Source: a virus. From it: 53,542 nt of DNA. This document shows positions 10,699 through 52,383 of the stretch, one piece after another. The notes under the pieces are model-generated. The model was not told the origin of the DNA and ran no database searches. It saw nothing but the letters and a program-made list of their open reading frames with translations. The DNA lies in the IMG/VR virus record IMGVR_UViG_3300031251_000024, positions 1 to 53,542 of that record. One strand, 5' to 3'. Made by a program: the position numbers and the translations under genes. Each line of letters starts with the position of its first letter. Position 1 is the first letter of the stretch.

Positions 10699-11309
10699 TA
10701 TCGCCCCTGACAGCCGCGGCGGGCAAGCGCTGGCTGCTGGTGCGCACCATCCGTATGGCGCACCGGGAAAAGCCCCGCGATCCGCCGCAACGAATGGAGA
10801 CGTGGCTCGATCACCTGAGGGAGGTCGGCTACACGATCTATTATCCGATGATCCGCGAGCAGCGGCCGGTACCGAAACGGCAGATGTCACGCGCGCAGCG
10901 CGCCTCGGACTCGCGGATCGTGCGGCCGCGGGTGGTTCCATTCCTGCCGTACTGGGTGTTCGCCTCTCCCCGCGGCCCGGTTGACGTCGCCAGGCTCGCA
11001 GATCACCCCGGTGTGATCGGCTTCCTCGAGGGGGATGGCGGCGGCCCGCGGTGGCTCCCGGGCGTCGTGGTCGACCAGCTGCGCGAGCGCGAGATCGACG
11101 GCGTGATCCCCGGCGCGACCCCGAAAGAATTCATCTTCCGCCGCGGCGACAAGGTCGAGGTCACCAACGGCGCGTTTACCATGCAGACGGGAATCGTCGA
11201 GGCCGCCCCGGATGTGACGCTGCAGGACATTGACGCCTCGGCGCGGCTCAAGCTTATAATCGGAAGCTACCGGATCGACGTGTCGGTCGCCGACGCCCGC
11301 CACGCCTGA
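10695..11309 (+). CDS. NusG/RfaH-like protein, putative late antiterminator, 204 aa
   Basis: ATG 10695 overlaps the preceding TGA. The NGN-like N-terminal part (KRWLLVRTIRMAHREKPRDP ... LREVGYTIYYPMI, then PYWVFASP and DHPGVIGFLEG) is followed by a KOW motif (FRRGDKVEVTNGAFTMQTGIVEAAPDV). RfaH-type paralogues ride on RNA polymerase and suppress termination. Lying at the end of the rightward early operon, before the late genes, it sits where lambda keeps Q. The antitermination role is inferred from fold and position. Confidence 0.75.
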   Translation: MISPLTAAAGKRWLLVRTIRMAHREKPRDPPQRMETWLDHLREVGYTIYYPMIREQRPVPKRQMSRAQRASDSRIVRPRVVPFLPYWVFASPRGPVDVARLADHPGVIGFLEGDGGGPRWLPGVVVDQLREREIDGVIPGATPKEFIFRRGDKVEVTNGAFTMQTGIVEAAPDVTLQDIDASARLKLIIGSYRIDVSVADARHA

Positions 11310-11393
11310 AGGCCCAAGACCACCACGCGAGCAGCCACCTCGAGCACCACCGCAGGAGCCACCCGGCTCGCCACCGCGGAGTGCTGCCGCTTT

Positions 11394-11663
11394 TCAGATC
11401 ATCCCCAGCGCCTGCATGTAGGTATCGAGAATCGCCTCGTGCTCCTCGCGCTCCTGCTTGTCCTGCTTGCGCAGGCGGATGATGGCGCGCAGCGCCTTGA
11501 CGTCGTAGCCGTTGCCCTTCGCCTCCGCATAGACGTCCTTGATGTCGTCGGCGATTCCCTTCTTCTCCTCCTCGAGGCGCTCGATGCGCTCGACGATGGC
11601 CTTGAGCTGGTCTTTGGCGAAGCGGGTGGCGGGTGCTTCGGCGGTTGCGGTGGCGATCGACAT
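11394..11663 (-). CDS. gapR: GapR family (DUF2312) nucleoid-associated protein, 89 aa
   Basis: [20 protein letters not shown], followed by [39 protein letters not shown]: the characteristic DUF2312 signature including the EAK.NGYD stretch. GapR of Caulobacter clamps overtwisted AT-rich DNA ahead of polymerases and helps topoisomerases. The gene is leftward and isolated between the early rightward operon and the serine recombinase. Such a protein could aid phage replication or transcription, or buffer prophage AT-rich DNA. Confidence 0.9.
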
Positions 11664-11805: not shown

Positions 11806-12657
11806 GTGCATAGCTCCCGCCGGGTCGCCCGGCTCAAGGCCAAGGGCGAGGTTCGGGCGGAAGCCAAGGCGGCGATCGCCGACCGGGCGGTCGGCTATGT
11901 GCGGGTGTCGACGGATGAGCAGGCGGCGCACGGCCACGGCCTTGAAGCGCAGGAGCGCGCGATTCGCGCCTTCGCCGATTCCCAGGGCTACGCCCTCGGC
12001 GGTATTTTCGCGGATCCCGGGATCTCGGGAAGCGTACGTCCGGCCGATCGCCCCGGCTTCTCCGAGCTGCTGCGCTCGAGCGACGGGACCTCAGTGCTGC
12101 TGGTGTGGAAATTCGACCGTCTGGCGCGGCAGCTGCTTTACGCCGTCACCACCGTCAACGAGCTCGCCGAGCACCACGACATAGTCATCCGCTCGGTCAC
12201 CGAGCCGATCGACACGTCCACGCCGATGGGAAGGACCATCTTCGCCGTGCTTGCCGGCATGGCCGAGCAAGAGCGCCAGGCGATCACCGAGCGCACCTTC
12301 GCCGGCCGGCGCGAGAAGGCGGGGGAGGGCGGGTTCGCCGGCGGCGCGACGCCGTATGGCTACCGGCGCGATCGCGGCGGCGGCCTGGCGATCGACGAGG
12401 CCGAGGCCCTGGTGGTGAAGCGCGTGTTTACGCTGCGCGGCGAAGGTCTCTCCTACGAGGCGATCGCGGCGACGCTCAACGGCCAGGCGATCATGACGCG
12501 GCGCGGCAAGGCCTGGCGCGGATCCGGCATCGCCTACATCCTCGACAACCCCAAATATCGCGGCGCCGTCGAATATCTCTTCCGCTGGGGCGGCGCCGAC
12601 GCCCACGTGCTGCGCGAGGGACAACACCCGGCGATTGCACCGACGCCGCAAATCTGA
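11806..12657 (+). CDS. Serine recombinase (resolvase plus recombinase domains), 283 aa
   Basis: The catalytic domain begins AVGYVRVSTDEQAAHGHGLE (nucleophile Ser of the VRVS motif). FADPGISGSVRPADRPGFSELL, VWKFDRLARQL and TSTPMGRTIFAVLAGMAEQER follow in family order. A Recombinase-type DNA-binding segment comes next (GGATPYGYRRDRGGG...ILDNPKYRGAVEYLF). The coiled-coil/zinc region of large serine integrases is absent. The start is uncertain; GTG 11806 follows GAGG. The genome also has a tyrosine integrase by attP, so this enzyme may do inversion, resolution, or be left from another element. Confidence 0.85.
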   Translation: MHSSRRVARLKAKGEVRAEAKAAIADRAVGYVRVSTDEQAAHGHGLEAQERAIRAFADSQGYALGGIFADPGISGSVRPADRPGFSELLRSSDGTSVLLVWKFDRLARQLLYAVTTVNELAEHHDIVIRSVTEPIDTSTPMGRTIFAVLAGMAEQERQAITERTFAGRREKAGEGGFAGGATPYGYRRDRGGGLAIDEAEALVVKRVFTLRGEGLSYEAIAATLNGQAIMTRRGKAWRGSGIAYILDNPKYRGAVEYLFRWGGADAHVLREGQHPAIAPTPQI

Positions 12658-12887: not shown

Positions 12888-13079
12888 ATGCCCGCGATCG
12901 AGAGCGCCCAGCGCCGCTCCGGCTACAAGCCGGTCTATCCGTGGCTCTCGCCTGGCGCGCTCGCCATCCTCAATCGCGCCGCGCTCGAGCGCGGCCAGCA
13001 TCCCTGCCAGTTGGCGGCCCGGCTGCTCGAGCGGGTGCTCGATGACCAGCTGATCAGCGCGGTGCTCGACGAGACCTGA
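12888..13079 (+). CDS. Hypothetical protein, 63 aa
   Basis: MPAIESAQRRSGYKPVYPWL, then SPGALAILNRAALERGQHPCQLAARLLERVLDD. The second half resembles a ribbon-helix-helix or short helical DNA-binding unit. Its TGA overlaps the ATG of the small terminase (TGATG). Confidence 0.65.
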   Translation: MPAIESAQRRSGYKPVYPWLSPGALAILNRAALERGQHPCQLAARLLERVLDDQLISAVLDET

Positions 13080-13642
13080 TGCCGGCCAAATCAAAGAAAA
13101 TCAAATCCGGACGCGGCGGCGCGCGAAAAAACGCTGGCCGCAAAAAGGGTTCGGGCCGGCCGAGCGCCTACAAGCCGGAATTCGCCGCCCAGGCCAAAAA
13201 GCTCTGCGAATTGGGCGCAACCGATGCCGACCTAGCCGACTTCTTCGGTGTTTCGATCACCACGATCGCGAACTGGAAAGTCCGGCACGCAGAGTTTTTT
13301 GACGCCCTAAAGGCCAGCAAGGATGCGGCCGACGCCCGGGTCGAGCGCAGCCTCTACAACCGTGCCGTCGGCTACACCTTCGACGCCGTCAAGATCTTCC
13401 TGCCGAAGGACTCGCGCACGCCGGTGATCGTGCCGCACCGCGAGCACGTGCCGCCCGACACCACGGCCGCGATCTTCTGGCTCAAGAACCGGCAGCGCGA
13501 CCGTTGGCGCGACGTCCAGGCTCACGAGCACGCCGGCAAGGACGGCGGCCCGATCGAGACCAAGGAACTCAACGACACCGAGCGGGCGCGGCGGATCGCC
13601 TACCTGCTGCACCGGGCGGCGAACAAGAAGGACAAGCCATGA
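13079..13642 (+). CDS. terS: Terminase small subunit, 187 aa
   Basis: A basic N-terminus (KSKKIKSGRGGARKNAGRKK) precedes an HTH section (YKPEFAAQAKKLCELGATDADLADFFGVSITTIANWK, ~30-70). Then come the typical ARVERSLYNRAVGYTFDAVKIF and HVPPDTTAAIFWLKNRQRDRWRD motifs of phage small terminases. It recognises phage DNA for packaging. The large subunit is 5 kb downstream, separated by fibre genes. Confidence 0.85.
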   Translation: MPAKSKKIKSGRGGARKNAGRKKGSGRPSAYKPEFAAQAKKLCELGATDADLADFFGVSITTIANWKVRHAEFFDALKASKDAADARVERSLYNRAVGYTFDAVKIFLPKDSRTPVIVPHREHVPPDTTAAIFWLKNRQRDRWRDVQAHEHAGKDGGPIETKELNDTERARRIAYLLHRAANKKDKP

Positions 13643-13977
13643 GCGTAGATGTCCAGAGCCATCCCGTCGTGTGCTCGTCGGTCTACAAGGCCTCGCCGCG
13701 TGGCTATGCGCAGCTCAGCGTCACCACCGTGCAGACGCTGGATGCGCTGCTCGCGGCCGCGAGCGTGCCCTACACGCGCGACGGCACCGAGCGGTGGGCG
13801 CTGGTCAGCGTGGAGACCAACGGCATCCGCTGGCTCGACGACGGGCAGACCCCGACGACTTCGTATGGCCAGCCGGTCGCGGCCGCGAGCGCCGAAATCC
13901 TCGCGACCGACTTCAGCAAGGTGAAACTGGTCTCCCAGTCCGGGACGGCGGTCGTGAATGTGAGCTTCTACCGATGA
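13639..13977 (+). CDS. Small virion-associated-type protein, 112 aa
   Basis: MSVDVQSHPVVCSSVYKASP; the middle (ERWALVSVETNGIRWLDDGQTPTTSYGQPVAAASAE) matches a recurrent short beta protein of phage structural clusters, as I remember it. ATGA overlaps with both neighbours. Probably a minor structural protein. Confidence 0.65.
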   Translation: MSVDVQSHPVVCSSVYKASPRGYAQLSVTTVQTLDALLAAASVPYTRDGTERWALVSVETNGIRWLDDGQTPTTSYGQPVAAASAEILATDFSKVKLVSQSGTAVVNVSFYR

Positions 13978-14915
13978 TGACCCTGGTCCGCGCCGTCGCG
14001 GCCGCGCTGGCGATCGGCGCCGCCGTCTTCGCCTCGCCGACGCTGGCGCAGTTTCCGCCTGACGTCGGGCCAAACGTGCCGACGAATCCCGGCACCGGCT
14101 CCTCCGGCATCACCAAGGACGTCACCACCTGCACCTCCTGCAATGCCAATGGCCTCCTCTATTCGGACGGCTCGGTCGTAAAGTCCCTTGCCACCGCCAA
14201 CTCCGGTGTTTTGGTCACCTCTGCGGGAGGGGTGCCGAGCATATCGTCGACGCTGCCGGCGGGATTGATAACAGGCGGCGGCACGGCTTGTTCAGCGGGG
14301 AACCTCGGTCTCGCGATTGGTGCCAATGTCCAGGGCTTTTACTCCACCGGAACTAACATCGCCGTTTGCGCCAACGGGACCAAGCTGGACTATGGTATTA
14401 CGAACGGGTCCGGCTGGACATTTGGAGCACAAGCCGCATTTGGTGTCATGGTTCTAAGCGGAGGGACTGGACTCAATACAGGTACGCTCAATATCACGGC
14501 CGGAGGCGCTCTCATCCACACCGGCATCACGACCGACGCGACGCATACCGACGCGACGGTCTGTGAGGACACGACCAGCCACCAATACTATTTTGGCTCT
14601 GGCACCGCTGGAATTTGCCTTGGCACATCGAGCATTCGGTTCAAGGACGCGATTGCTCCGCTCTCATCGGGCCTCTCCGACCTCATGAGGCTGGACACGA
14701 TCACTTATCACTATAAGCCTGGGTATGGCGATCCGTCTCGCAAGCTGTATGGATTCACTGCCGAGCAGATGTATGGGGTAATTCCCGATCTCGTCGGGCT
14801 TGATCCCGAAGGACGGCCAAATTCGGTGGATTGGGCTGGGCTCGTGCCGGTGCTGGTCAATAGCATCAAGGAATTGAAGGGTCAGATCGAACAGCTTCGC
14901 GCAGCGCGGGGATGA
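13974..14915 (+). CDS. Tail fibre with signal peptide and C-terminal S74 chaperone domain, 313 aa
   Basis: ATGATG start; the first ~26 residues (MTLVRAVAAALAIGAAVFAS, then PTLAQ) form a clear Sec signal peptide ending in an Ala-x-Ala-like site. A Gly/Thr/Ser-rich beta region follows. The C-terminal ~95 residues (SSIRFKDAIAPLSSGLSDLM ... LVNSIKELKGQIEQLRA) match the S74 intramolecular chaperone that trimerises and then cleaves itself from fibres. Its codon usage and base composition are less GC-rich than the surrounding genes. A Sec signal on a tail fibre is unusual. Confidence 0.8.
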   Translation: MMTLVRAVAAALAIGAAVFASPTLAQFPPDVGPNVPTNPGTGSSGITKDVTTCTSCNANGLLYSDGSVVKSLATANSGVLVTSAGGVPSISSTLPAGLITGGGTACSAGNLGLAIGANVQGFYSTGTNIAVCANGTKLDYGITNGSGWTFGAQAAFGVMVLSGGTGLNTGTLNITAGGALIHTGITTDATHTDATVCEDTTSHQYYFGSGTAGICLGTSSIRFKDAIAPLSSGLSDLMRLDTITYHYKPGYGDPSRKLYGFTAEQMYGVIPDLVGLDPEGRPNSVDWAGLVPVLVNSIKELKGQIEQLRAARG

Positions 14916-14922
14916 CAAGGGC

Positions 14923-16995
14923 ATGATTCGCGCCGCTCTAATTGCGACGATCGCCGGCATCGCGATTGCTGGCGCATCCGCTCCGGGACCGATCGACGGT
15001 AGTTGTCCCAATCTGCCGGGCGCTGCGATCTCGTTTTGCCGCAATATCAACGTCATGCACTGGGGCGCGAAGTGCGACGGGCACACCGACGACGCTGCCG
15101 CGATCCAGGGGGCGAACGACTACGCTTACGAACACGGCGCGCTGGAGATCAATTTTCCTGCCACGGGCGCCTGCTGTTCGTATACGCCGCCGCTCTACAT
15201 GGATGCGCCTGGAAACTTGCGGGCCAATCTACAGGCCCCAACAATCTTTGGGTTCTCGTTGCGCTGGGTAGGCGCTGGACTGGCAGGAAATATCAATCAC
15301 GGTTCATGGCTATGCCCCAATAGCGAAGCCGCTCCTGCGCTGTGGATTGGGACTGGCGCCGGAATGACGATTTCCGGGCTCAACATTCGAGGCCCAAATA
15401 CCAACCCATTCTGTGACGCTGAGCGCAATCCTAGCGGAATTGGCATTGCTATCGCTGGCGGCCCCGGAGGGTCCACGCAGACGCTCATCGAGAACGTCCA
15501 CGTCGTAAACTTCTACACCGGGATCAAGACGGGCGCGAACGTCGATAGTCTCAGCGACAGCGTGACCCTGCACAAGACTTGGATCGAGGGCGCCTATTAC
15601 GGATTCTACGTCGGTGCGACGCAGAACTTCATCCTCGACCTCGACCAAACCACCATCACGGCAGCGAAGGCCGTCTATGTTCCGCAGAACATCCATGTGA
15701 ATGTTCGCGGGGGCTCTCAAGGCGGCCCTGGTGCCCCGCTGCTCGTGGCCCCGGTTTCCGGGATTTCCACGCTCTCTGGAAAGGGAAGCGGCCCGTACAC
15801 GTTCACCGCCGCGCTCACTCTCGCTCATCCGCTCTGCTACCATCGGGCGGCCTTCAAGACGGCCCACTTCGGAGTGGTCCCCGCGCTGTTGACGGGCTAC
15901 GCCAACGGGGTCGGTAGTTTTCAGCTTCTCCCGGCATGGGTTGTTTCGCAGTTCGGCGCACAGGATTTGGTCGCGGGCACCGATCTGCAAGCCGAACTGC
16001 AAGCTACAACGCAAGTTTTCCTCGGTGGCGATCAGACGATCTGGACCGGTGCCATCAACGCGAGCGGCGTTCACATCGAGACGCCGTGCCCCTACACGAT
16101 GCTGGACATGCAGACCGCCCAGCCTGCCGGAAACCAGCAGCAATCGGTGATCGAGCGCATCCGGTACAATGGCGATCCGGCGGGATGCTCGCTGCAAGGC
16201 AGCCTAGGGTCGGGTTCGACAAACGAAGCCGCGTTCCTTCTACAGCAGTCTCATCCGTGGATGTCTCTGAGCAATTATTCGATCAGCGCAAGGGACAGCA
16301 ATTTCGGCTCGGCGGGTGCCGATCACGTTCTTATCGATGCGTGGCATCAGGGCGCTGGATATTCGTTCTCGGGAAACGTTTACCTTGGGGCTCCCAATTG
16401 GCGCTCATGGTCCGACGTTCACAACCCCGGCCTTGATGGATTGAATGCACGCTTCAAGGGGCTCGGCACGTTCGACGCTTCGCCTTACAGCCGCAGTAGT
16501 GGCCTCGACAGTCAGTATCCGGCGGTCGGTTACCGCCCAGCCCCGTGGGCAATTCCTCGATTGAGCGCCTCGCAATTTACTGCACTCGGGTCGTTGCCAG
16601 CTCTTGGAACCTATGACCCGATCCATGGCGACACGCTCTACCAGGTACTCAGTTACGATCCTGCGGCCGGCGCGAAGTTCGTCCGGTCAGGTCATCACTT
16701 CGCATCATGGGGGCAAAATCTCTCCGTCAACTGGACCTACAAGGGCGGGTCAAACGTCGCGCTGGTAGACAGCACAGCGAATCTCTTTGCCGGCCTCTAT
16801 ATCGGATTGTCCATCGGCGGCACGACGCAGTGGATGGTCGTCACCGGGGTCTATCCGTCACTCGGCTATGTGACGGTGACGAGTGTCGGGGATGGGATCA
16901 CAGTGCCGCTCAATCCGGGAGACAAGCTCACAGTCTACACCGGAAGCGTCATTCTGCAGGAACCATACTCGTTTTCGACAATGACCTTGCAGTGA
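14923..16995 (+). CDS. Beta-helix tail spike, probable polysaccharide depolymerase, 690 aa
   Basis: After a signal-peptide-like start (MIRAALIATIAGIAIAGASA) comes INVMHWGAKCDGHTDDAAAI, the hallmark opening of pectate-lyase-3 type spikes. Parallel beta-helix sequence follows to about residue 300 (ISGLNIRGPNTNPF..., LIENVHVVNFYTGIKTG). The C-terminal ~380 residues are beta-rich and unassigned. Such spikes bind and cut capsule or LPS. The gene lies with the S74 fibre between the two terminase genes. Catalytic residues cannot be picked by eye. Confidence 0.8.
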   Translation: MIRAALIATIAGIAIAGASAPGPIDGSCPNLPGAAISFCRNINVMHWGAKCDGHTDDAAAIQGANDYAYEHGALEINFPATGACCSYTPPLYMDAPGNLRANLQAPTIFGFSLRWVGAGLAGNINHGSWLCPNSEAAPALWIGTGAGMTISGLNIRGPNTNPFCDAERNPSGIGIAIAGGPGGSTQTLIENVHVVNFYTGIKTGANVDSLSDSVTLHKTWIEGAYYGFYVGATQNFILDLDQTTITAAKAVYVPQNIHVNVRGGSQGGPGAPLLVAPVSGISTLSGKGSGPYTFTAALTLAHPLCYHRAAFKTAHFGVVPALLTGYANGVGSFQLLPAWVVSQFGAQDLVAGTDLQAELQATTQVFLGGDQTIWTGAINASGVHIETPCPYTMLDMQTAQPAGNQQQSVIERIRYNGDPAGCSLQGSLGSGSTNEAAFLLQQSHPWMSLSNYSISARDSNFGSAGADHVLIDAWHQGAGYSFSGNVYLGAPNWRSWSDVHNPGLDGLNARFKGLGTFDASPYSRSSGLDSQYPAVGYRPAPWAIPRLSASQFTALGSLPALGTYDPIHGDTLYQVLSYDPAAGAKFVRSGHHFASWGQNLSVNWTYKGGSNVALVDSTANLFAGLYIGLSIGGTTQWMVVTGVYPSLGYVTVTSVGDGITVPLNPGDKLTVYTGSVILQEPYSFSTMTLQ

Positions 16996-17072
16996 TCCGT
17001 TGAGATAGCGCCGCCCCGTCACCGTTCTGATCGCATTTTCCCGCCCCTAGACCCACAAGGTTGAATCCCACT

Positions 17073-17342
17073 ATGTCACGATCATGGTCTCTCGGCCTCT
17101 GCCTCGCCACATTCCTGGCTCCTGCGGCTTTTGGGCAACAGCCCGCCCGTCCTAACCCCAACGCAAAGCTCTCCATCGAGATGACCCGAGGCATGGCGGG
17201 AGACCTCGCCGGGGTTCTCATGCGCTTCTCGTCCCTGTGCGATCCGGCTTGCCATCTCATCATCGCAAGGGCACTGGTGGCGCTGGATAGCTCGGTGCCG
17301 GTGGAGGCGCCCGTACAGCCGCCGGCCCCGCCGCAGCAATAG
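17073..17342 (+). CDS. Small exported protein, 89 aa
   Basis: Signal peptide MSRSWSLGLCLATFLAPAAF, then GQQPARPNPNAKLSIEM. The mature part has two Cys (SLCDPACHLI) and a Pro-rich tail. ATG 17073 is preferred over the in-frame TTG 17061. Found next to the exported fibre and spike. Function unknown. Confidence 0.6.
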   Translation: MSRSWSLGLCLATFLAPAAFGQQPARPNPNAKLSIEMTRGMAGDLAGVLMRFSSLCDPACHLIIARALVALDSSVPVEAPVQPPAPPQQ

Positions 17343-17415
17343 CAATCCTCCGCCGCCGCACGGGTCACCCGCGGCAACCTCCATACAAATCCCAATCTGA
17401 CAAGGAGATCACGCC

Positions 17416-17895
17416 ATGAGCTATTCCGGCGCTTCCGTCGATTCGCCGCGCGTTTCGAACGAATTTGGTTCGCGTCGGACCGGCTACAACAATAAGGGGG
17501 CCATCACACAGGAGGGCATCCCGATCACCAGCAATGCCGCGGATGCGGTGATCACGATCGCGGCCTCGCAGACCTCTCCCCGCACGGTGACCATCCAGCT
17601 CAACAATACGGACGGCACGCCGATCTCGCACTGCCAGAGCTTCGAGATGGGAGTCTATCTCGATGCGGCCGGCGTCGCTCAGGCCGTCACCGGCGGTTCG
17701 ACCGGCATGGCCGTCGACGGCACCGCCGGCATCATCGAGGCGACCCCGACCTCGAAGAAGCGGTTCAGTTGCCGCACCAACGCGACCGGGTTGTGGTCGG
17801 GCACTTGGACCGACAGCGCCCACGAGGTCGCGTTCCTCGGCGTCATCCTGCCGTCCGGGCGCACTGTCTTCTCGGCCGCGCTCACGACGGCGTAA
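17416..17895 (+). CDS. Hypothetical structural-type protein, 159 aa
   Basis: ATG after AAGGAGATCACGCC. MSYSGASVDSPRVSNEFGSR; beta-rich with repeated Thr/Gly (ADAVITIAASQTSPRTVTIQLNNTDGTPI). It looks like a capsid- or tail-decorating domain, but no family is recognised. Confidence 0.6.
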   Translation: MSYSGASVDSPRVSNEFGSRRTGYNNKGAITQEGIPITSNAADAVITIAASQTSPRTVTIQLNNTDGTPISHCQSFEMGVYLDAAGVAQAVTGGSTGMAVDGTAGIIEATPTSKKRFSCRTNATGLWSGTWTDSAHEVAFLGVILPSGRTVFSAALTTA

Positions 17896-17923
17896 CCCCA
17901 AGGTCAAACAGGAGATATTCCCA

Positions 17924-18244
17924 ATGCTTCGCCAGACCATCGACGAGCTGATCGCCGAGTCGCACGCGACCGGCTACGGCTCCGAGCTGCCGCCCTCGGT
18001 GACGCGCCTCGTCCAGGCGCTTGCCGACGGCATCGACGCGAAGGCCGCGCCCGCGGGCCCCGTCCAGCCGGCCACACCGGACCCGGCGATCGCCGCGCTC
18101 GAGACCGAGGTGGCCGCACTGAAGGCCCAGGCTGCGGCGTTCGCCGGCGCCAAGGCGGAGGTCGACCAGCTGGTGCGGGTGCTGTCAGGCCTCGCGCCTG
18201 GGCAGCCCGCGGCACCGGCCGCGCCTGCGGCACCGGCGGCCTAA
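17924..18244 (+). CDS. Coiled-coil protein, 106 aa
   Basis: MLRQTIDELIAESHATGYGS; a coiled-coil heptad stretch at about 60-90 (IAALETEVAALKAQAAAFAGAKAEVDQLV) and an Ala/Pro-repeat tail. A good AGGAG precedes the start. The gene lies just before the holin-like gene. Function unknown. Confidence 0.65.
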   Translation: MLRQTIDELIAESHATGYGSELPPSVTRLVQALADGIDAKAAPAGPVQPATPDPAIAALETEVAALKAQAAAFAGAKAEVDQLVRVLSGLAPGQPAAPAAPAAPAA

Positions 18245-18247
18245 GCC

Positions 18248-18499
18248 ATGCGCCTGTCCGGCCCGGTGCTGATCTCCATCCTGGTGATCGCCGGGTTCAT
18301 CTCCGCGTGCGTGCTGCTGCTGCTCAAGCCGATCACGCTTTCGGACAACGCCGGGCAGATTCTCAACATCCTGCTCGGCACGCTCGGCGCCAAGTTCTCG
18401 GACGTGGTGAGCTACCACATCGGCTCCTCGGCCGGCTCCAAGGCCAAGGACGCCACGATGCAGGCGCTGACGGCGGGGCAGGGCAAGCCGCCAGCGTGA
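18248..18499 (+). CDS. Holin-like membrane protein, 83 aa
   Basis: Membrane helix at ~5-27 (GPVLISILVIAGFISACVLLLLKP) and an amphipathic or second helix at ~35-50 (AGQILNILLGTLGAKFSDVVSYHI). A GSSAGSKAKDATMQ polar tail follows, a motif I associate with phage holin-family proteins. It is far from the endolysin, which weakens the call; it may instead be a virion or inhibitor membrane protein. Its TGA overlaps the GTG of the large terminase. Confidence 0.5.
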   Translation: MRLSGPVLISILVIAGFISACVLLLLKPITLSDNAGQILNILLGTLGAKFSDVVSYHIGSSAGSKAKDATMQALTAGQGKPPA

Positions 18500-20076
18500 G
18501 CCTGATCGAGGACCTGCTCAAGCAGGTCGGCAATCCAAGCCCCGAGTTCAAGGCGCTCCTGGAGAAGGTCGGCGCCGAGCATCCCGACGAGCTCGCCGAA
18601 GCGGTCGACGCTGTCTGGGTGCCAAACCCGGGGCCGCAGACGGCGGCGTACTTTTCGCCCGCGGACGAGTTGCTGTATGGCGGAGAAGCAGGCGGAGGCA
18701 AGAGTGACCTGCTTCTCGGCCTTCCCGTCACGGCGCACGATCGTTCCCTGGTGCTGCGCCGGATCAACGGCGACGCCGTCAAGCTCGTCGAGCGCGTCGA
18801 AGCGATCGTCGGTCACCGCAACGGCTACAACGGTCAATTGCAGCGCTGGCGTCTGGATGGCCGCCTGATCGAGCTGCGCGGGTGCGAGCAGGAAGCGGAC
18901 AAGCAGAGGTTCAAGGGCGACCCTCACGACTTCATCGGCTTTGACGAGCTTTGTGACTTCCTCGAAAGCCAGTACCGATTCATCATCGGATGGAACCGGT
19001 CGGCGAAGCCGGGGCAGCGCTGCCGTGTAGTGGGTGCCACCAATCCTCCAACGACCGCGTCCGGCCTGTGGGTGTTCAAGTATTGGGCGCCTTGGCTCGA
19101 CCCCAATCACCCGAACCCGGCGAAGCCAGGCGAGTTGCGGTGGTACACGACGGTCAACGGCGTCGACACCGAGGTCGACGGTCCCGGCCCGCATGAGATC
19201 GAAGGCGAAGCTGTGCCGGTGATGGCGCGGTCGCGGTCCTTCATCCCCTCGACGCTGGAAGACAATCCCGACCTCGCGGCCACCAATTACCGCTCGGTTC
19301 TGGCGGCCCTGCCCGACGGATTACGTCGCGCCTACCGCGATGGCGACTGGTCGGTGGGCCAAAGGGATGACGACTGGCAGGCGATCCCGACAGCGTGGAT
19401 CGAGGCAGCCCAGGCCCGCTGGACGCCGAAGCCGCCGAGAGGCGTGCCGATGACGGCGATGGCCGTCGACGTGGCGCCAGGCGGCGGCGATCGCCGGGTG
19501 ATCTGCTGGCGTCACGGTGGGTGGTTCGGCCCATTCGACGCCAAAAGAGAGGTCGATAAGACCGGCCGGCGCACCGCGGCAGACGTGATCTACCATCGCC
19601 GCGGCAATTGCCCCGTGGTGGTCGACCTCGGTGGTGGTTGGGGCGGCGATGCGGTGATCGCGCTCAAGGACAACGGCGTGGTTGTCGTGGCCTTCAACGG
19701 CGTCGAGACGACGACAGAGCGGCAGCGCGGCGGCAAGCTTGGCTTCCGCAACAAACGGAGCGCCGCGGTGTGGCGTTTCCGCGAAGCGCTTGATCCAAGC
19801 CAGGAGGGCGGGTCGGTCGTCGCCTTACCTCCTGATGCTGAGCTCAAGGCCGAGCTCGCTTCCTACCGCTACGAGAACACGCATGCCGGCATCCTGGTCC
19901 GGCCCAAGGAAGAACAGCGCGAGTTGCTCGGCCAGTCGCCTGACAAGGGGGATGGTGCCGTGATGTGCCTCTCCGAAGGCGCAAAGGCAGCGGAGCGAAT
20001 CGCGCGTGCGGGACGCACGGCGACGCCGATGGTCGCGAACACGGGGGGACGGCAGATGGCGAGTGTGAGGCGATGA
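18496..20076 (+). CDS. terL: Terminase large subunit, 526 aa
   Basis: GTG start overlaps the upstream stop. Walker A LLYGGEAGGGKSD (~55-67); a Walker B-like HDFIGFDELCDF (~144); a motif III region VVGATNPPT; then an RNase H-type nuclease domain beginning MAVDVAPGGGDRRVICW with a second acidic region VVVDLGGGWGGDAV. It pumps DNA into proheads and cuts it. The order matches other podoviral terminases. Confidence 0.9.
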   Translation: MSLIEDLLKQVGNPSPEFKALLEKVGAEHPDELAEAVDAVWVPNPGPQTAAYFSPADELLYGGEAGGGKSDLLLGLPVTAHDRSLVLRRINGDAVKLVERVEAIVGHRNGYNGQLQRWRLDGRLIELRGCEQEADKQRFKGDPHDFIGFDELCDFLESQYRFIIGWNRSAKPGQRCRVVGATNPPTTASGLWVFKYWAPWLDPNHPNPAKPGELRWYTTVNGVDTEVDGPGPHEIEGEAVPVMARSRSFIPSTLEDNPDLAATNYRSVLAALPDGLRRAYRDGDWSVGQRDDDWQAIPTAWIEAAQARWTPKPPRGVPMTAMAVDVAPGGGDRRVICWRHGGWFGPFDAKREVDKTGRRTAADVIYHRRGNCPVVVDLGGGWGGDAVIALKDNGVVVVAFNGVETTTERQRGGKLGFRNKRSAAVWRFREALDPSQEGGSVVALPPDAELKAELASYRYENTHAGILVRPKEEQRELLGQSPDKGDGAVMCLSEGAKAAERIARAGRTATPMVANTGGRQMASVRR

Positions 20077-20300
20077 GATCGCGCCCCTACCTCTCCGCCA
20101 GTGAGCCGCCGCGCCCCTACAGCGAGATCGTCGCCGAGCGCCGCCGCGCCGACCCGACCCACCGCATCCTCGATGACATCGCCGAGATGGAGGCCGAAGC
20201 CGCCGCCATGACCGACCCCGTCGAACGCAAGCGGCGCCAGTGCGAGGCCGAGGAGCTGCGCTGCCAGCTCGCCCACCGGCCGCCGGCCGAGGAGTTTTGA
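20073..20300 (+). CDS. Small charged protein, 75 aa
   Basis: MRSRPYLSASEPPRPYSEIV; helical, rich in Arg/Glu (AERRRADPTHRILDDIAEMEAEAAAMTDPVERKRRQCEAEEL). It overlaps terL and the desaturase-like gene at its ends (ATGA, TGATG). A possible packaging-linked accessory; function unknown. Confidence 0.6.
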   Translation: MRSRPYLSASEPPRPYSEIVAERRRADPTHRILDDIAEMEAEAAAMTDPVERKRRQCEAEELRCQLAHRPPAEEF

Positions 20301-20758
20301 TGAACGCGCTTGAAGGGTTGCTCGGCTACGTCGTGGCCGATGCCTTGACCGGCATCTATCACGCCGCGACGGATGCCGGATGGAATGTCCGCTCACAACT
20401 GGATTTGTTTCAGAACCACCACAAACACCCGCGCAGCATGACGTTCGATTTAAGTCCGGCGGTCGTAGGCATTCCCCTGATGCTATGCGCCGCGTTGGGC
20501 TGGCATGTCGTCTTTTTTCTCGTCCTTGGGGCGGCTCTGTCTCTGTGTCAGGTGCCTCATTACTACACCCACCATCGCGGAGGCGCGGTCATCCGCTTCC
20601 TGCAGCGTTGGCATGTCATCCTGCCGCCTCGCGAACACGCGCTCCACCGTCGCCAGTTCGATCGCAACTTCTGCATCCTGTCCGGCTGGAATAACGGCTG
20701 GATGAACTGGGTGCTGGGCACGAACTCCGAAATGCGCCGGCTGAGGAGTCCTGAATGA
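20300..20758 (+). CDS. CarF/TMEM189-like lipid desaturase, 152 aa
   Basis: Histidine clusters match the lipid-desaturase (Kua/CarF) pattern: VADALTGIYHAATD (His21), FQNHHKHP (40, 41, 43), VPHYYTHHRG (87, 91, 92), LQRWHVILPPREHALH (105, 113, 116) and CILSGWNNGWMN. A membrane stretch (~53-82) lies between the His groups. Family members use a di-iron centre to desaturate ether lipids (plasmanyl-ethanolamine) or related lipids. It is shorter than usual, and an Arg follows His116 where the family tends to have a second His. It is overlapped by structural genes on both sides, so it is a settled part of the late operon. It would act in the host inner membrane. Confidence 0.75.
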   Translation: MNALEGLLGYVVADALTGIYHAATDAGWNVRSQLDLFQNHHKHPRSMTFDLSPAVVGIPLMLCAALGWHVVFFLVLGAALSLCQVPHYYTHHRGGAVIRFLQRWHVILPPREHALHRRQFDRNFCILSGWNNGWMNWVLGTNSEMRRLRSPE

Positions 20759-21015
20759 ACCCCTTCAAGATGCCAACGCCGCCGGCGATCCCGGCGCCGA
20801 AACCGCCGCCGCCGCTGCCGGACCTCAACTCGCCGGAGAACCTCGCCGCCCAGCGCCTGGCGCAGGCGAGGGCGAATTCGTCCGGCCGCTCGGCGACCCA
20901 GCTCACCACAGCCGGAACGGCGGCCGCGGGCACGCTGGCAGGCTCGGCGGGTGGCACCACGGCACCGACCACGAGCCCCGGCTCCTATGCCGGCGCCAAG
21001 GCGGGGGCGCGCTGA
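20755..21015 (+). CDS. Proline-rich small protein, 86 aa
   Basis: MNPFKMPTPPAIPAPKPPPP, then LPDLNSPENLAAQRLAQARAN and a Gly/Thr/Ala tail. Short Pro-rich proteins of this kind sit next to portal genes in podoviruses. ATGA overlap with the desaturase-like gene. Function unknown. Confidence 0.6.
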   Translation: MNPFKMPTPPAIPAPKPPPPLPDLNSPENLAAQRLAQARANSSGRSATQLTTAGTAAAGTLAGSAGGTTAPTTSPGSYAGAKAGAR

Positions 21016-21491
21016 TGGGGAAGACCGCTTCGAAGCCTGCAGCTAGCACTGCCGGCGAGAACGATCCGCTGCTCGCGGCGGTGATCTCCAAGCTGCCGGC
21101 ACCGGGGACGAGCTGGCCGGCCGAACAGCGCGTCGCCTGGCTCAAGATGATGGCGATGGCGTTCGACCTCGCCTACGGCGTCGTCGAGGAAATGCCGGCG
21201 TTTCTTGGGGAGGACCGAAGTACCTCTGCCCGTCCTGTGCCAAGCGAGGGGAGTGGCGAGCCCAAGCCGCTCCCGGTCACCGGCACCGAGCCCGACCGCT
21301 TCTACGTCGACGCCAAGGGCCACGCCCGCAAGGACCCCGGCCGCATTCCGATTACCGTCAACGACGTGCCGACCGGCGAGGTCATCTGGGACGAGCGGCC
21401 GCTCGGCAAGCGGGACCTCGATACCATCGTGTGGGCGGATGGGGAGTGGCCGCCGGGGTCGCTGCCGCCGTTGAACTTTGCAGGCGGCTGA
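21015..21491 (+). CDS. Hypothetical protein upstream of portal, 158 aa
   Basis: MGKTASKPAASTAGENDPLL; a helical first half (SWPAEQRVAWLKMMAMAFDLAYGVVEE) and a beta-rich second half (DRFYVDAKGHARKDPGRIPITVNDV...). TGATG overlap with the previous gene. Probably a head or packaging accessory, from position only. Confidence 0.65.
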   Translation: MGKTASKPAASTAGENDPLLAAVISKLPAPGTSWPAEQRVAWLKMMAMAFDLAYGVVEEMPAFLGEDRSTSARPVPSEGSGEPKPLPVTGTEPDRFYVDAKGHARKDPGRIPITVNDVPTGEVIWDERPLGKRDLDTIVWADGEWPPGSLPPLNFAGG

Positions 21492-21497
21492 GCACTG

Positions 21498-23177
21498 ATG
21501 CGCCAGCGCGTCCAGGACGTCGTCCGCATCGGGGACAAGCTGTTCTCCGACCGCTACCCCATCATGACGCTGTGGCAGGTCCAGGCGGAAAACTTCCATG
21601 TGATGAGGGCGGACTTCACGCGGCAGCGCTACATATCCGAGGAGTTCGGCTCGTTCCTGATGACCAGCATGCCGGCGCTGTGCCATCGCGAGCTGCAGGA
21701 CGCCTTCTCCACGATGCTGCGGCCCCGCGGCCAGCAGTGGTTTCACGCCAAGACGGATTCGGAGAACGTCAACAACGATCGCGACGCGAAGGTGTGGCTC
21801 GACTGGGCCTCGCGCACGCAGCGCAACGCGATGTACGACGCCCGCGCCAATTTCGTGCGCGCCTCCAAGGAAGGCGACGGGGACTTCATCGCCTTCGGCA
21901 ACGCCGCCATAACCCGCGAGATCGTCGACTACGAGCACTTTCTTTATCAAGCCTGGCACCTGCGCGACATCGCCTGGGACCAGGGGCTGACCGGCGCCGT
22001 CAACAACGTCCACTTCGACTGGAAGCCACAGGCGCGCCAGCTCGCCGAGCGCAAGAAATGGACGCTGTCGCCCAAGGTGCTGGAGCTCGCCAACTCGCGC
22101 GACCAGCAGGCGTTCCGCGAGATCAAGTGCCGGCGGATGATCCTGCGCGCCGACGAATACGATCTCCCCGCTGCGCAGACCCGCGGCAAGCCCTGGGTCT
22201 CGGTCTACGTGGACTGCGAGAACGAGACCATCATGGAGGAGATAGCGCTCCGCACCAAGCCGGTGACGATCTCGCGCTGGGCGACCGGCGGCACGATGTA
22301 CGGCAAGCAGTACGCCTATTCGCCGGCGGCAATTTACGCCCTTCCCGACGGCCGCATGCTCCAGCAGATCGTGCTCTCGATGCTGACCTCGGCGGAGATG
22401 GCAAATTTCCCGCCCTTGATCGCGGTCGGGGAGTCGATCAATGGCGCGGTCAATCTCTATGCGGGAGGCATCACCCAGGCCGACGCGGACTATGACGAGC
22501 GCACCGGCGAGGTGCTGCGCTCGCTGGACTTGCGCTTCGACGGGATCAAATACGGCGCCGAACAACTCGACCGCCTGGAGCGCAACCTCCAGAAAACTTG
22601 GTACCTGGACAAGATCAAGTTTCCCGAGATCACGAAGGACATGACCGCCTACGAGGCGTCCAAGCTCTGGGACAACTTCATCAGCGGCGCGTTGCCTCTG
22701 TTCGAGCCGGTCGAGATCGAGTTCAACGCGGCGATCTGCGAAGGCACCTTCGAGGACATGATGGACCGCGGCGCCTTCGGCCCGGTCCGGGACATGCCCG
22801 CGATCCTGCGCGGCCGCGATATCAACTGGCAGTTCGATACGCCGATCACGGTGGCAGCAGAGAAGGCCCTCGTCGGCGCGTTCCAGGCGTTCGTCCAGAC
22901 CCTGGTCGAGGGCGCGCAGGTCGATCCCGACGTGGTGCTCAACGCCGACATGAACACGGCGACGCGCGAAGCGCTCGGGGGCACCGGATCGCCGGCGAAG
23001 TGGCTCTATTCGACCGACAAGGTCAAGCAGCTGCAGGCGCAGAAACAACAGGAGAAGGCCGCTGCGGCGGCGGCGCAGCAGGTCGCAACCGGCGCTGACG
23101 TGGCGACGCGGGTCGGCAATGCGGCGCAGAGCGCCGGGGATGCGGCGCAATCGCTGCAGGGGGCAGGGGTGCTGTGA
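21498..23177 (+). CDS. Portal (head-to-tail connector) protein, 559 aa
   Basis: Size, acidic/aromatic composition and internal features (DRYPIMTLWQVQAENFHVMRADF; NAAITREI...; NETIMEEIALRTKPVTISRW; ALPDGRMLQQ) fit the T7 gp8-type head-tail connector family. A Gln/Ala-rich C-terminal tail follows at ~510. It forms the dodecameric DNA channel and seeds capsid assembly. It lies in the usual order: terL, portal, scaffold, capsid. Confidence 0.85.
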   Translation: MRQRVQDVVRIGDKLFSDRYPIMTLWQVQAENFHVMRADFTRQRYISEEFGSFLMTSMPALCHRELQDAFSTMLRPRGQQWFHAKTDSENVNNDRDAKVWLDWASRTQRNAMYDARANFVRASKEGDGDFIAFGNAAITREIVDYEHFLYQAWHLRDIAWDQGLTGAVNNVHFDWKPQARQLAERKKWTLSPKVLELANSRDQQAFREIKCRRMILRADEYDLPAAQTRGKPWVSVYVDCENETIMEEIALRTKPVTISRWATGGTMYGKQYAYSPAAIYALPDGRMLQQIVLSMLTSAEMANFPPLIAVGESINGAVNLYAGGITQADADYDERTGEVLRSLDLRFDGIKYGAEQLDRLERNLQKTWYLDKIKFPEITKDMTAYEASKLWDNFISGALPLFEPVEIEFNAAICEGTFEDMMDRGAFGPVRDMPAILRGRDINWQFDTPITVAAEKALVGAFQAFVQTLVEGAQVDPDVVLNADMNTATREALGGTGSPAKWLYSTDKVKQLQAQKQQEKAAAAAAQQVATGADVATRVGNAAQSAGDAAQSLQGAGVL

Positions 23178-23497
23178 CGAGAGCGCCCCGGAAGACCCCG
23201 CCGCGGCCGCGCTGGCCCTGGGATCAGGTCGAGCTCGAGCCCCACGAGATTTCCGCTGTCAAGGCGATCGCCAACACGCTGCCGGCGGCCTGGTCCGCGC
23301 TCGAAAAGATCACCGGCGTCGACGCCATGAGCTTCACCGCCGGTGGTCAGGACGGCGAGCGCGCCACGAACTTTGCCGAAGGCAAACGCTGGGTCGGGCG
23401 CACGCTGCGCCAGATCCGCGACATGAAGATGCCGGGCGGCCTCCCGGCGGAGCAGGGGCCGCACGCGGTGCCGAAGGGGGCGCCGCCGCCGGATTAG
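23174..23497 (+). CDS. Hypothetical protein between portal and scaffold, 107 aa
   Basis: GTG start overlapping the portal stop. VTRAPRKTPPRPRWPWDQVE; a helical middle (EISAVKAIANTLPAAWSALEKITGVDAMSF). No family recognised. Confidence 0.6.
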   Translation: MTRAPRKTPPRPRWPWDQVELEPHEISAVKAIANTLPAAWSALEKITGVDAMSFTAGGQDGERATNFAEGKRWVGRTLRQIRDMKMPGGLPAEQGPHAVPKGAPPPD

Positions 23498-43212: not shown

Positions 43213-44219
43213 GAAAGCTTCTTCAAATCGCGTGCGCGTGGCTGCTGCTCTTCGGGCAGGTCCATGCCCAGGGCGTCGGCAACGTGCCGGCCTGGAACGT
43301 CGTCGGCAATCCGAGTGCTAGCGCGGCGCCGATGTCGTCGGCGTCGATCACCTCGATGCTCGATGGGGCGTTCTGCCCGACCAACGGCGCGGTGCTCCAG
43401 CGCGGGGCGAGCGTGTGGGCGTGCCAGACCGCGATCTCCGGTTCGATTCTGACCGCCAACACCGTACCGCTGTCCGCGCTCCCGCAGGGGGCGGCCAACA
43501 CCACGCTCTGCAATCCGACCAATGCGACGGCCAACTTCCAGGCCTGCACCGCGGGGCAGCTCTCGGCCAACCTTTGTCAGCCGGTCGTGCACGTCTACAC
43601 GGCCACGGCGAGTTCGCCCTACACCATCGACCAGTGTAACGGCGTCAATGCCGTCTATCTCGAGTTCGAGGCCGTAGGCGGCGGAGCGGGGCCGCCGGGG
43701 TCGGGATCGACGCCGGGCACGGGTAACAACGGCAACGCTTCGACCATCACCTACAATTCGGTGACCTACACGGCCGGCGCCGGGCAAACCGCGAGCGCGG
43801 GGAATAACCAATTTGGAGGCGCCGGCGGCGCGGTCAGCGGCTGCGACGAAAATATCATCGGAGGACAGGGCGGCCCATCGCAGGCGGCCAATGCTTCCAA
43901 TCCCGGAACCTATGGTGGCGGCACGACGCTTGCTGGCCCAACGTCCGGCGGGCTCGCCTCCGGCACGCTGACCGGACAAACCGGGCCGGCCAATTCCGGC
44001 GCGGGTGGCGGCGGCGGTGCGCAAGGCGGCGCCGTTGCTTCTTCTCCTGGAGGTGGCGGCGGCGGGACGTGCCGTAAGCTGGTGGCCACCGTGGCGGGAC
44101 AGAACAGCGTCTCTTTCGTGGTCGGCGCCGCCGTCGCTGGCGGCACCCTCGGCGCCACCGGCGGGGCTGGTGGCGGCGGCGCGGCCGGCCGCGTCAAGAT
44201 CACGGCGAGGTGGCAATGA
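43209..44219 (+). CDS. Exported glycine-rich tail fibre/adhesin, 336 aa
   Basis: ATG 43209 overlaps the previous stop. Signal peptide MRKLLQIACAWLLLFGQVHA, then a fibre region. From ~155 there is a glycine-rich section (VGGGAGPPGSGSTPGTGNNG ... GAGGGGGAQGG ... GATGGAGGGGAAGRVKITAR). Poly-glycine sandwiches of this kind form receptor-binding tips in T-even adhesins. The signal peptide on such a protein is unusual. Confidence 0.75.
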   Translation: MRKLLQIACAWLLLFGQVHAQGVGNVPAWNVVGNPSASAAPMSSASITSMLDGAFCPTNGAVLQRGASVWACQTAISGSILTANTVPLSALPQGAANTTLCNPTNATANFQACTAGQLSANLCQPVVHVYTATASSPYTIDQCNGVNAVYLEFEAVGGGAGPPGSGSTPGTGNNGNASTITYNSVTYTAGAGQTASAGNNQFGGAGGAVSGCDENIIGGQGGPSQAANASNPGTYGGGTTLAGPTSGGLASGTLTGQTGPANSGAGGGGGAQGGAVASSPGGGGGGTCRKLVATVAGQNSVSFVVGAAVAGGTLGATGGAGGGGAAGRVKITARWQ

Positions 44220-44605
44220 CCAGGATCATGTTGGCGACCGCCATCGCCCTCGGCCTCATCGCTACCGCCGGCGCGCGCTGGAAGCCCGAATTCGCCCAAC
44301 TCTCTCCCGAGGTCCGCGACTGGTACAAGGGCCAGACGATGACGCCCGAGACGTGGAAGCGCCTCGGCGAGCCTTCCTGGCATTCGTGTTGCGAGCACGG
44401 CGACGTCTTCAAGACGCAGTTCCGCGTCGGGCCTGGTGCCCATGGTGAGGACGAGTGGTGGTATCTCAAGGATGGCGTTTGGAAACAGGTGCCGCCTGAC
44501 ACCATCCACTGGGGCCAGCATGCGCCCGGTGGTCAGCCCACGCTCTTCATCTACCAAAGCACCGGCCAGGAGCTTTGCTTCTACCCTCCCGACGGCGGGC
44601 TGTGA
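44216..44605 (+). CDS. Small exported protein, 129 aa
   Basis: Signal peptide MTRIMLATAIALGLIATAGA, then RWKPEFAQLSPEVRDWYKGQ. The mature part has a Cys pair in SWHSCCEHGDVFKTQFRVGP and a Trp-rich middle (DEWWYLKDGVWKQVPPDTIHW). It is similar in style to short exported proteins of rhizobial prophages. Its location beside fibre genes suggests surface or periplasmic action. Function unknown. Confidence 0.65.
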   Translation: MTRIMLATAIALGLIATAGARWKPEFAQLSPEVRDWYKGQTMTPETWKRLGEPSWHSCCEHGDVFKTQFRVGPGAHGEDEWWYLKDGVWKQVPPDTIHWGQHAPGGQPTLFIYQSTGQELCFYPPDGGL

Positions 44606-47760: not shown

Positions 47761-48056
47761 GCGCCGGCTCCGAGCTTCTGCTCCAGGGCCTCCGCCTTGG
47801 CGGCCTGGCCCTTCTGGTAGGGCATCCAGACCGCATACCGCTCGATCGGCGTGGCGTCGCCGTCCTGCACCAGGGTGACCGAGGTGACCCCGAAAGGCGT
47901 CCCATTCGGCGTGACCGCCATCAGGTTCACCATCCGGTCGCCCCACACGTAGGTAACGTCGGCCTTCAGCGGCTGATCGTTGGGCTGGCCGGGGATGCGT
48001 TGGTCGGCGGGCGGGTAGTACCAGACGACTCGGCCAATGGTGGGCTGGATGATCAT
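47757..48056 (-). CDS. Small phage protein, 99 aa
   Basis: MIIQPTIGRVVWYYPPADQR; DVTYVWGDRMVNLMAVTPNG, TPIERYAVWMPYQKGQAAKA. The Trp-Tyr-Pro opening and the beta pattern recur in small phage proteins. Overlaps Ku and the RyR gene by 4 bases each. Confidence 0.7.
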   Translation of the reverse strand: MIIQPTIGRVVWYYPPADQRIPGQPNDQPLKADVTYVWGDRMVNLMAVTPNGTPFGVTSVTLVQDGDATPIERYAVWMPYQKGQAAKAEALEQKLGAGA

Positions 48057-48898
48057 GCTTTCCCCTTTTTCTTGGTTTCCGCGCGCCCCTTCACGCTCGG
48101 CGCCGGCGGCTTCTTCTGCACGCTGTCGATCGAGGCCTGCAAAGCGTCCATGAGTCCGACGACGCGGTGCGGCGCCGGCGTGCGGTCCTTTACCGGCTCG
48201 AGCGCATGGCCGGCCTGCTTGCGGCGGACGAGCTCGACCAGGGCATTTTCGTACCGGTCCTCGAACGTCTTGGGGTCGAACGGACCCACGAGCGCATCGA
48301 TGACCTGGCCGGCGAGCCGCGCCGTCGCCGGCGGCAGCTTGAGCTCGGGGATTTCATCGAAGTAGGAGGCCTGGTCGCGCACCTCGTAGCCGTAGCGCAG
48401 CGCGGTTGCCAGCAGACCCTTGTCCCGCGCCTCGAGCATCAGGACGCGCTCGCGCCTGGCCAGCACCACGCGGCCCAGGCCGACCACGCGCTTGGCGCGG
48501 ATGGCGTCCCGGATCGCGGCGAAGGCTTCCTGGCCGACCTGGTCGGCCGGGACGATGTAGTAGGGCGAGTCGAGGTAGCGATCGTCGACCTCGGCGCGGG
48601 CCGCGAAGCTCGTGATCTCGATCGTGTGGGTGGAATCGAGCTGGATGGCCTCGATGTCGGTATCGTCGATCAGGAGATATTGGCCCTTGGCGATCTCGAA
48701 GCCGCGCCCGACGTCGTCGGCTTCGACGAGCTCGCCGGTCTCGGCGTCGACGAGCTGCTGTTTGAGCTTGTTCCCGGTCTTCTTGTTGACGCGGTTGAAG
48801 GAGATGCGCTCGGCGCTCGAGGCGGCCGGGTAGAGCGCGACCGGGCACGAAACGAGCGACAGCTTGAGGTAGCCCTTCCAGGACGCACGCGGGGCCAT
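48053..48898 (-). CDS. ku: Ku DNA end-binding protein (non-homologous end joining), 281 aa
   Basis: MAPRASWKGYLKLSLVSCPV is the standard bacterial Ku start (KGYLKLSLVSCPVALYPA). RISFNRVNKKTGNKLKQQLV, then GFEIAKGQYLLIDDTDIEAI, YIVPADQVGQEAFAAIRDAI and MLEARDKGLLATALRYGYEV follow in order. Lysine-rich C-terminus as usual. Ku rings DNA ends and recruits LigD; no LigD or ligase is seen in the window, so the host's would be used. It lies beyond attP from PL, within a block of overlapping leftward genes. Confidence 0.9.
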   Translation of the reverse strand: MAPRASWKGYLKLSLVSCPVALYPAASSAERISFNRVNKKTGNKLKQQLVDAETGELVEADDVGRGFEIAKGQYLLIDDTDIEAIQLDSTHTIEITSFAARAEVDDRYLDSPYYIVPADQVGQEAFAAIRDAIRAKRVVGLGRVVLARRERVLMLEARDKGLLATALRYGYEVRDQASYFDEIPELKLPPATARLAGQVIDALVGPFDPKTFEDRYENALVELVRRKQAGHALEPVKDRTPAPHRVVGLMDALQASIDSVQKKPPAPSVKGRAETKKKGKA

Positions 48899-52118: not shown

Positions 52119-52383
52119 CGAAATGCTCCGGGCCGTCCTGGGTGTCGCCGACATAGCCATCGTTTCGGACCCCATTGTCGTTGTCCAGCCAAGCCTTCAC
52201 CGCGGGCCAGTATCTCCCGCCCCATAACGTGCGAATCCTGGGGAAACCTCGATCCTCGGCCTCGCGGACGGTGGCGCGGAAGCGATCCCAGCCGATCTTG
52301 GGGTTGATTCGCCGGTGCAGTTCCCGGTCGTCGACAAAGGCGGCGTCGACGGGATCGGTGGCGTCCGGCGAGGCGGCGGTCAT
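52021..52383 (-). CDS. Excisionase-like protein, 120 aa
   Basis: VDDRELHRRINPKIGWDRFR, ATVREAEDRGFPRIRTLWGG, RYWPAVKAWLDNDNG: a small winged-helix/AlpA-like region typical of genes paired with rhizobial integrases. The C-terminal ~45 residues overlap the int start. It probably directs excision at induction. Function by position and pattern. Confidence 0.65.
   Translation of the reverse strand: MTAASPDATDPVDAAFVDDRELHRRINPKIGWDRFRATVREAEDRGFPRIRTLWGGRYWPAVKAWLDNDNGVRNDGYVGDTQDGPEHFDATEGQEARLQDRPHPAGRHAPALLDRRERRA

Follow-up and report, generated by a model that had tools for sequence, protein, structure and literature searches.

The window analysed here, a stretch of 53,542 bases that makes up the whole of an IMG/VR virus record, carries in its late gene cluster a small ORF that the original prediction read as a lipid desaturase. 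The locus raises two questions: does a phage gene at this place belong to such a family, and can this copy still work as an enzyme? The ORF, its histidines and the motifs LQRWHVILPPREHALH and CILSGWNNG were all found as predicted, and the location between terminase and portal was confirmed (Table 1). The reading frame is intact over 152 codons, with no stop or frameshift; its ATG overlaps the upstream stop as TGATG, and an ATGA at its end holds both its own stop and the ATG of the gene that follows. The overlaps of start and stop with the neighbours had thus been described correctly, but the neighbours, which had been taken for structural genes, are not proven to be such: both are small conserved reading frames with no known function, the upstream one overlapping the TerL stop in its turn. 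No promoter-like site was detected in 17000-23200 and no terminator-like site at the gene. Since the region 17000-23200 lacks a promoter-like site, the gene is most simply assumed to be transcribed together with the late genes, and late expression is plausible from the operon position. We also considered the gene as part of a lysis cassette and rejected this, the endolysin-like and spanin-like genes of the window being far off, at about 45.1-46.6 kb.

Table 1. Features of the window and conserved residues of the 152-residue protein, with the mouse PEDS1 equivalents
Feature	Position	Strand	Remarks
Serine recombinase	11806-12657	+	
Terminase large subunit (TerL)	18499-20076	+	phrog_979, E 2e-29
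Upstream flank, 75-aa conserved small ORF	20073-20300	+	function unknown; homologues in L009, L028, L030 and L031
PF10520 lipid-desaturase-domain gene	20300-20758	+	152 aa, compact membrane protein; Pfam E 7.9e-17
First motif HxxxD: H21, D25 (PEDS1 H96, D100)	20360-20374	+	invariant in 25/25 aligned
Second motif FxxHH: F37, H40, H41 (PEDS1 F118, H121, H122)	20408-20422	+	histidines invariant in 25/25
D50, nine residues past H41, at the place of PEDS1 H131	20447-20449	+	Asp in the window protein and four close phage relatives
HxxxH: H87, H91 (PEDS1 H187, H191)	20558-20572	+	invariant in 25/25
Third motif HxxHR: H113, H116 kept (PEDS1 H215, H218), R117 at the place of H219	20636-20650	+	His in 24/24 other aligned members
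Downstream flank, 86-aa Pro/Ala-rich ORF	20755-21015	+	in relatives, its counterpart comes straight after the 75-aa ORF (empty site)
Portal/head-tail connecting protein	21498-23177	+	PF12236, E 1.3e-43
Putative tyrosine integrase	50865-52175	-	PF00589, just over cut-off

A profile search of the protein matched residues 10-136 to Pfam PF10520 (Lipid_desat) with 62.3 bits, over the curated cut-off of 26.4 (E 7.9e-17), which establishes the homology to lipid desaturases that had been proposed. PHROGs held no family for the protein. A scan of the window for the DNA pattern of the catalytic motifs gave one occurrence, and none of 100 shuffles contained it. For a comparison of residues, we aligned 25 sequences of the family, taken from phages, Spirochaetes and a Rhizobium plasmid, and mapped the numbering onto mouse PEDS1 (PMC8960569). 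Membership in the PF10520 family is supported by the profile, the order of the motifs, the tree and, weakly, the fold. AlphaFold models reached a pLDDT of 80.3 for the window protein and 85.6 for the related phage protein L019. In a comparison limited to chains that could be re-aligned (VIA second look), the best solved fold for both was the hydroxylase domain of Scs7p, with Z 5.7 and rmsd 4.3 over 137 residues for the window protein (next 2.3) and Z 8.0 and rmsd 3.5 over 131 for L019 (next unrelated 4.0), a range in which a common helical arrangement alone can explain the match of the models. Foldseek found no significant match for the window protein in the PDB. For comparison with the CarF/TMEM189 type, which has four transmembrane helices, the window protein was modelled with helices at residues 2-28, 52-68 and 71-81, and only one long hydrophobic stretch, 46-89, passed the hydropathy cut-off. 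The L019 model also matched the fold of a lipid desaturase domain protein of Harvfovirus (A0A3G5A308, E 1.6e-5), which differs in belonging to a giant virus of eukaryotes and in its length of 220 aa. With Scs7p as the top solved fold and a weak FA_hydroxylase Pfam match (E 0.13, 13 bits, below cut-off), the protein might instead be a fatty-acid or sphingolipid hydroxylase that has the fold superfamily in common but catalyses another reaction. This is quite unlikely, as PF10520 scores 62 bits against 13 and the PF10520 motif spacing is followed throughout.

Within the alignment, the motifs are conserved in the window protein with one exception. The Asp and Phe that are essential in PF10520 desaturases (D100 and F118) are present as D25 and F37, and the eight conserved histidines known to be essential in PEDS1, together with D100 and F118 (PMC8960569), are kept save one. 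An active PF10520 desaturase would be expected to carry all eight; the window protein keeps seven, and H219 is R117. The arginine beside His116 had been noticed correctly, and it fills the place of a histidine that is otherwise invariant. Two histories may lie behind it, a change from His to Arg or the deletion of one His codon: the close clade is one residue longer at the third motif (HALH-RRQFDRNFC versus HASHHQGDFDRDFC), and the alignment puts the gap one residue later. R117 is known from a single metagenomic contig, and an error of assembly or a variant strain could lie behind it. Replacement of the H219 counterpart abolishes PEDS1/CarF activity (PMC8960569). By analogy with these enzymes, which lie outside the window clade, H219 would be essential here too, and the window copy is probably impaired, its catalysis lost or much reduced, because an otherwise invariant metal ligand has been replaced by Arg (or its codon deleted). 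The window protein deviates at 9 of 48 clade-conserved columns (the other four members of the clade at 1-4 of 40-43), which relaxed constraint could explain, but so could a deeper branch. Against impairment, the ORF is intact and perfectly spaced and does not look like an old pseudogene.

The same intact and precisely coupled ORF, in which all other catalytic residues are kept, would suit an enzyme with full activity and a remodelled di-metal site, where Arg117 or an extra histidine (H43 or H92) compensates and the chemistry or substrate has changed. A viral member of the family has also lost a third-motif histidine, the neighbouring H218: in L086 (434-949), HGRLHA stands in place of HxxHH as read by eye, and such losses would seem to recur at low frequency. 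Compensation is nonetheless unlikely, because every other aligned member keeps H219, its loss abolishes the activity of PEDS1 and CarF, and neither H43 nor H92 is conserved across the clade.

We then looked at which lipid the family members of this clade might act on. The family part of the proposed CarF/TMEM189-like lipid desaturase stands; the ether-lipid label does not, as the clade lacks H131 and H219 is Arg in the window protein. FAD4, the palmitate delta-3-trans desaturase of phosphatidylglycerol, resembles the window protein in belonging to PF10520 and in lacking H131, the place being usually Arg in plants. Its activity is enhanced by PRXQ. FAD4 lies outside our alignment, and the window protein differs from it in having Asp rather than Arg at this place, in lacking the eighth histidine and in a setting with no plastid. 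PEDS1 has the extra histidine H131 that is absent from FAD4, and its CarF counterpart, H113, is required for function (PMC9131029, PMC8960569). Neither the window protein (D50) nor its four close phage relatives, which have Asp, carry this PEDS1-specific residue. Since H131 is absent from the window clade, plasmalogen synthesis by it is unlikely as judged from the alignment, and any activity would more probably be on acyl chains, as for FAD4, a preference that rests mainly on the absence of the PEDS1 diagnostic residue. CarF/TMEM189 (PEDS1, the plasmanylethanolamine desaturase) and the window protein have the Pfam family, the motif order and the D100 and F118 equivalents in common. These likenesses could argue for a true plasmalogen (vinyl-ether) desaturase, but we hold this very improbable: the H131 equivalent is missing from protein and clade alike, H219 is missing from the protein, and homologues of plants and alphaproteobacteria, in which the counterpart of CarF H113 is missing, fail to complement CarF (PMC9131029). 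The window protein is also shorter, without the N-terminal region of the cellular homologues, and unlike CarF/TMEM189 its gene sits in a phage late gene cluster.

Two jumbo-size phage records, of 595 kb (L002 7980-8435) and 395 kb (L021 1222-1866), encode proteins with the full set of eight histidines and a His at the H131 place. Counted as nine residues past the H41 equivalent, this His is present in both jumbo-phage proteins (LR756511 and L021). Going by these residues, the jumbo-phage proteins are more promising than the window gene as candidate plasmalogen desaturases of phages.

The window protein is not the only phage member of its family. A third-motif pattern with 7-residue spacing retrieved 11 viral contigs, all confirmed as PF10520, and the same pattern with 6-residue spacing retrieved 0 viral contigs. 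No relatives came from direct peptide-pattern scans of viral contigs with a single query or the three-row alignment A1, nor from such a scan of genomes with the window protein alone. Alignment-guided scans added L065 and a clade of 34 contigs, 7 of them among the first 11. In total, at least 41 viral records besides the window carry the gene, some of them near-copies of each other: 39 IMG/VR contigs, the uncultured 595-kb phage LR756511 and the cultured Erythrobacter phage vB_EliS-L02, whose laboratory host is E. litoralis DSM 8509. None of these relatives is annotated as a desaturase; in vB_EliS-L02 the copy (UIS25202.1, at 2337-2873) lies between PhoH and portal and is labelled only a hypothetical protein. 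The statement that no phage enzyme of this type had been described thus fails as to uniqueness and seems to hold for the papers that could be searched. Our literature search found no paper linking PF10520 or Kua to phages, and the main text of the Erythrobacter phage paper mentions no desaturase (PMC9127768). Myxococcus phage Mx9, whose size and GC are comparable, was dropped as a desaturase or plasmalogen lead, the terms having come from the reference list of the paper. Roitman et al. (2018) reportedly described lipid/fatty-acid desaturases in cyanophages and proposed that they alter host membrane lipids, as is proposed for the window gene; we take these to be of the ordinary fatty-acid desaturase family and not PF10520. 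Lipid desaturases carried by cyanophages are also cited in PMC11480375 and PMC8228385.

Like the window protein, the other phage members (L019, L022, L024 and L065, the Mu-like phages and vB_EliS-L02) are of a short phage form; unlike it, nearly all have HxxHH intact, and their genes lie in other genomic slots. A second clade consists in part of Mu-like phages (Portal_Mu, Mu Gp27). The Phe of the second motif is Asn in this Mu/Erythrobacter clade, and its members L018, L020, L023, L025, L026 and L067, with Asn at the F118 place, form a distinct subfamily; changing F118 to Ala in mouse PEDS1 leaves 6% activity. Pairs in the clade gave dN/dS values of 0.04-0.36, which are evidence of purifying selection, so that the phage copies there are maintained as proteins. 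In L076, L077 and L101, the PF10520 gene stands immediately after an amidase endolysin and before a lipoprotein; several other contigs have, by eye, a spanin-like lipoprotein or small membrane protein just upstream. This adjacency to lysis genes is a plain observation, and further contigs hold the gene in unrelated slots (methyltransferase, glutaredoxin-like, tail genes). Three close relatives have, beside or near the desaturase gene, a gene that looks by eye like a papain-like cysteine peptidase, with no Pfam hit (L056 11045-11617, L057 8416-9246, L065 5078-5977). L057, a 74-kb phage contig, also encodes a GroES-like cochaperonin directly 3' of the terminase (11117-11455; PF00166, E 1.3e-14).

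To place the phage itself, we compared its TerL, which was nearest to those of Acidovorax phage AP1 (45%), Bordetella phage BPP-1 (41%) and Limnohabitans phage DC33 (40%); it is a BPP-1-like podovirus. Its serine recombinase and putative tyrosine integrase suggest that it is probably temperate. In the region 13079-17895 (+ strand), the small terminase (13079) is set apart from TerL by a tail-fibre gene bearing an endosialidase chaperone domain and by a possible depolymerase of large size. A Ku70/Ku80 beta-barrel protein (48053-48898, - strand; PF02735, E 1.5e-39) is 48-51% identical to Ku proteins of Bradyrhizobium and Microvirga plasmids, a resemblance that hints at a Hyphomicrobiales host. 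Seven IMG/VR contigs share the portal, at 44-68% identity, and none of them, some being fragments, carries PF10520. In all four relatives that span the junction (L009, L028, L030 and L031), the ORFs on either side follow each other directly, overlapping or with few bases between, and the desaturase is absent, which fixes the exact insertion point. Since the flanks are joined in these relatives, the window gene is a single-gene insertion. A small secreted or membrane protein gene of the window (44210-44605, + strand) has a homologue in L009 (4365-4775) between TerL and the 75-aa ORF; its closeness to the desaturase insertion site would point to a variable region.

The window protein forms one clade with the four close phage relatives L019, L022, L024 and L065 (support 100/99), at 41-46% identity. 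In the parts compared, which left L065 outside, the phages of this clade share almost no other gene with the window; the only one seen was a weak TerL match in L057. By these comparisons, the desaturase in the window phage is a horizontal gain of one gene. As with a phage moron in the strict sense, a single gene stands between two genes that are joined in relatives (4/4); since it shows no promoter-like or terminator-like site of its own, we call it an accessory insertion and not a strict-sense moron. Its GC content is 0.595 and its GC3 0.73, both lower than in the five neighbouring genes that were measured (0.65-0.76 and 0.80-0.91). This composition, the absence from close relatives and the lost catalytic histidine could mean that the gene is a neutral passenger, recently gained, already degenerating and without a role in this phage. 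We give this some weight as a minority view, but the absence of stop and frameshift, the compact, coupled position and the purifying selection seen in other phages speak against it.

On balance, we lean towards a singly acquired accessory late gene from a genuine lipid-desaturase family of phages, with an acyl-chain role in the intact relatives and a copy in the window that is probably impaired. A temperate BPP-1-like podovirus would have gained a compact PF10520 membrane protein as a single gene lodged between two late genes that are coupled to each other. The intact relatives would use a histidine-bound di-iron centre, with O2 and host electron donors, for the desaturation, or other oxidation, of an acyl chain in a host glycerophospholipid at a late stage of infection, in a chemistry nearer to that of plant FAD4 than to that of CarF/TMEM189, and membrane packing may change around assembly and lysis. 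The window copy, with little or no catalysis left, may be decaying or may have a residual or altered role.

A bolder reading is that PF10520 is an undescribed, widespread phage tool that desaturates host phospholipid late for lysis or assembly and has repeatedly been taken up next to genes of endolysin, spanin-like and holin-like type, the window gene being an altered-site variant still active on the membrane; this we regard as speculative and rather improbable. The scattered phage family with a cultured representative is apparently undescribed and is more interesting than the possibly defective window copy. Its carriers range over Mu-like phages, the window podovirus, other unrelated contigs, two jumbo-size records and a cultured Erythrobacter phage. 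The window protein, as a natural variant without one metal ligand, is a helpful reference for judging how much of the site can be spared. If active, PF10520 proteins would be a route for phages to remodel host membranes, an idea that the cultured Erythrobacter phage and its host make testable.
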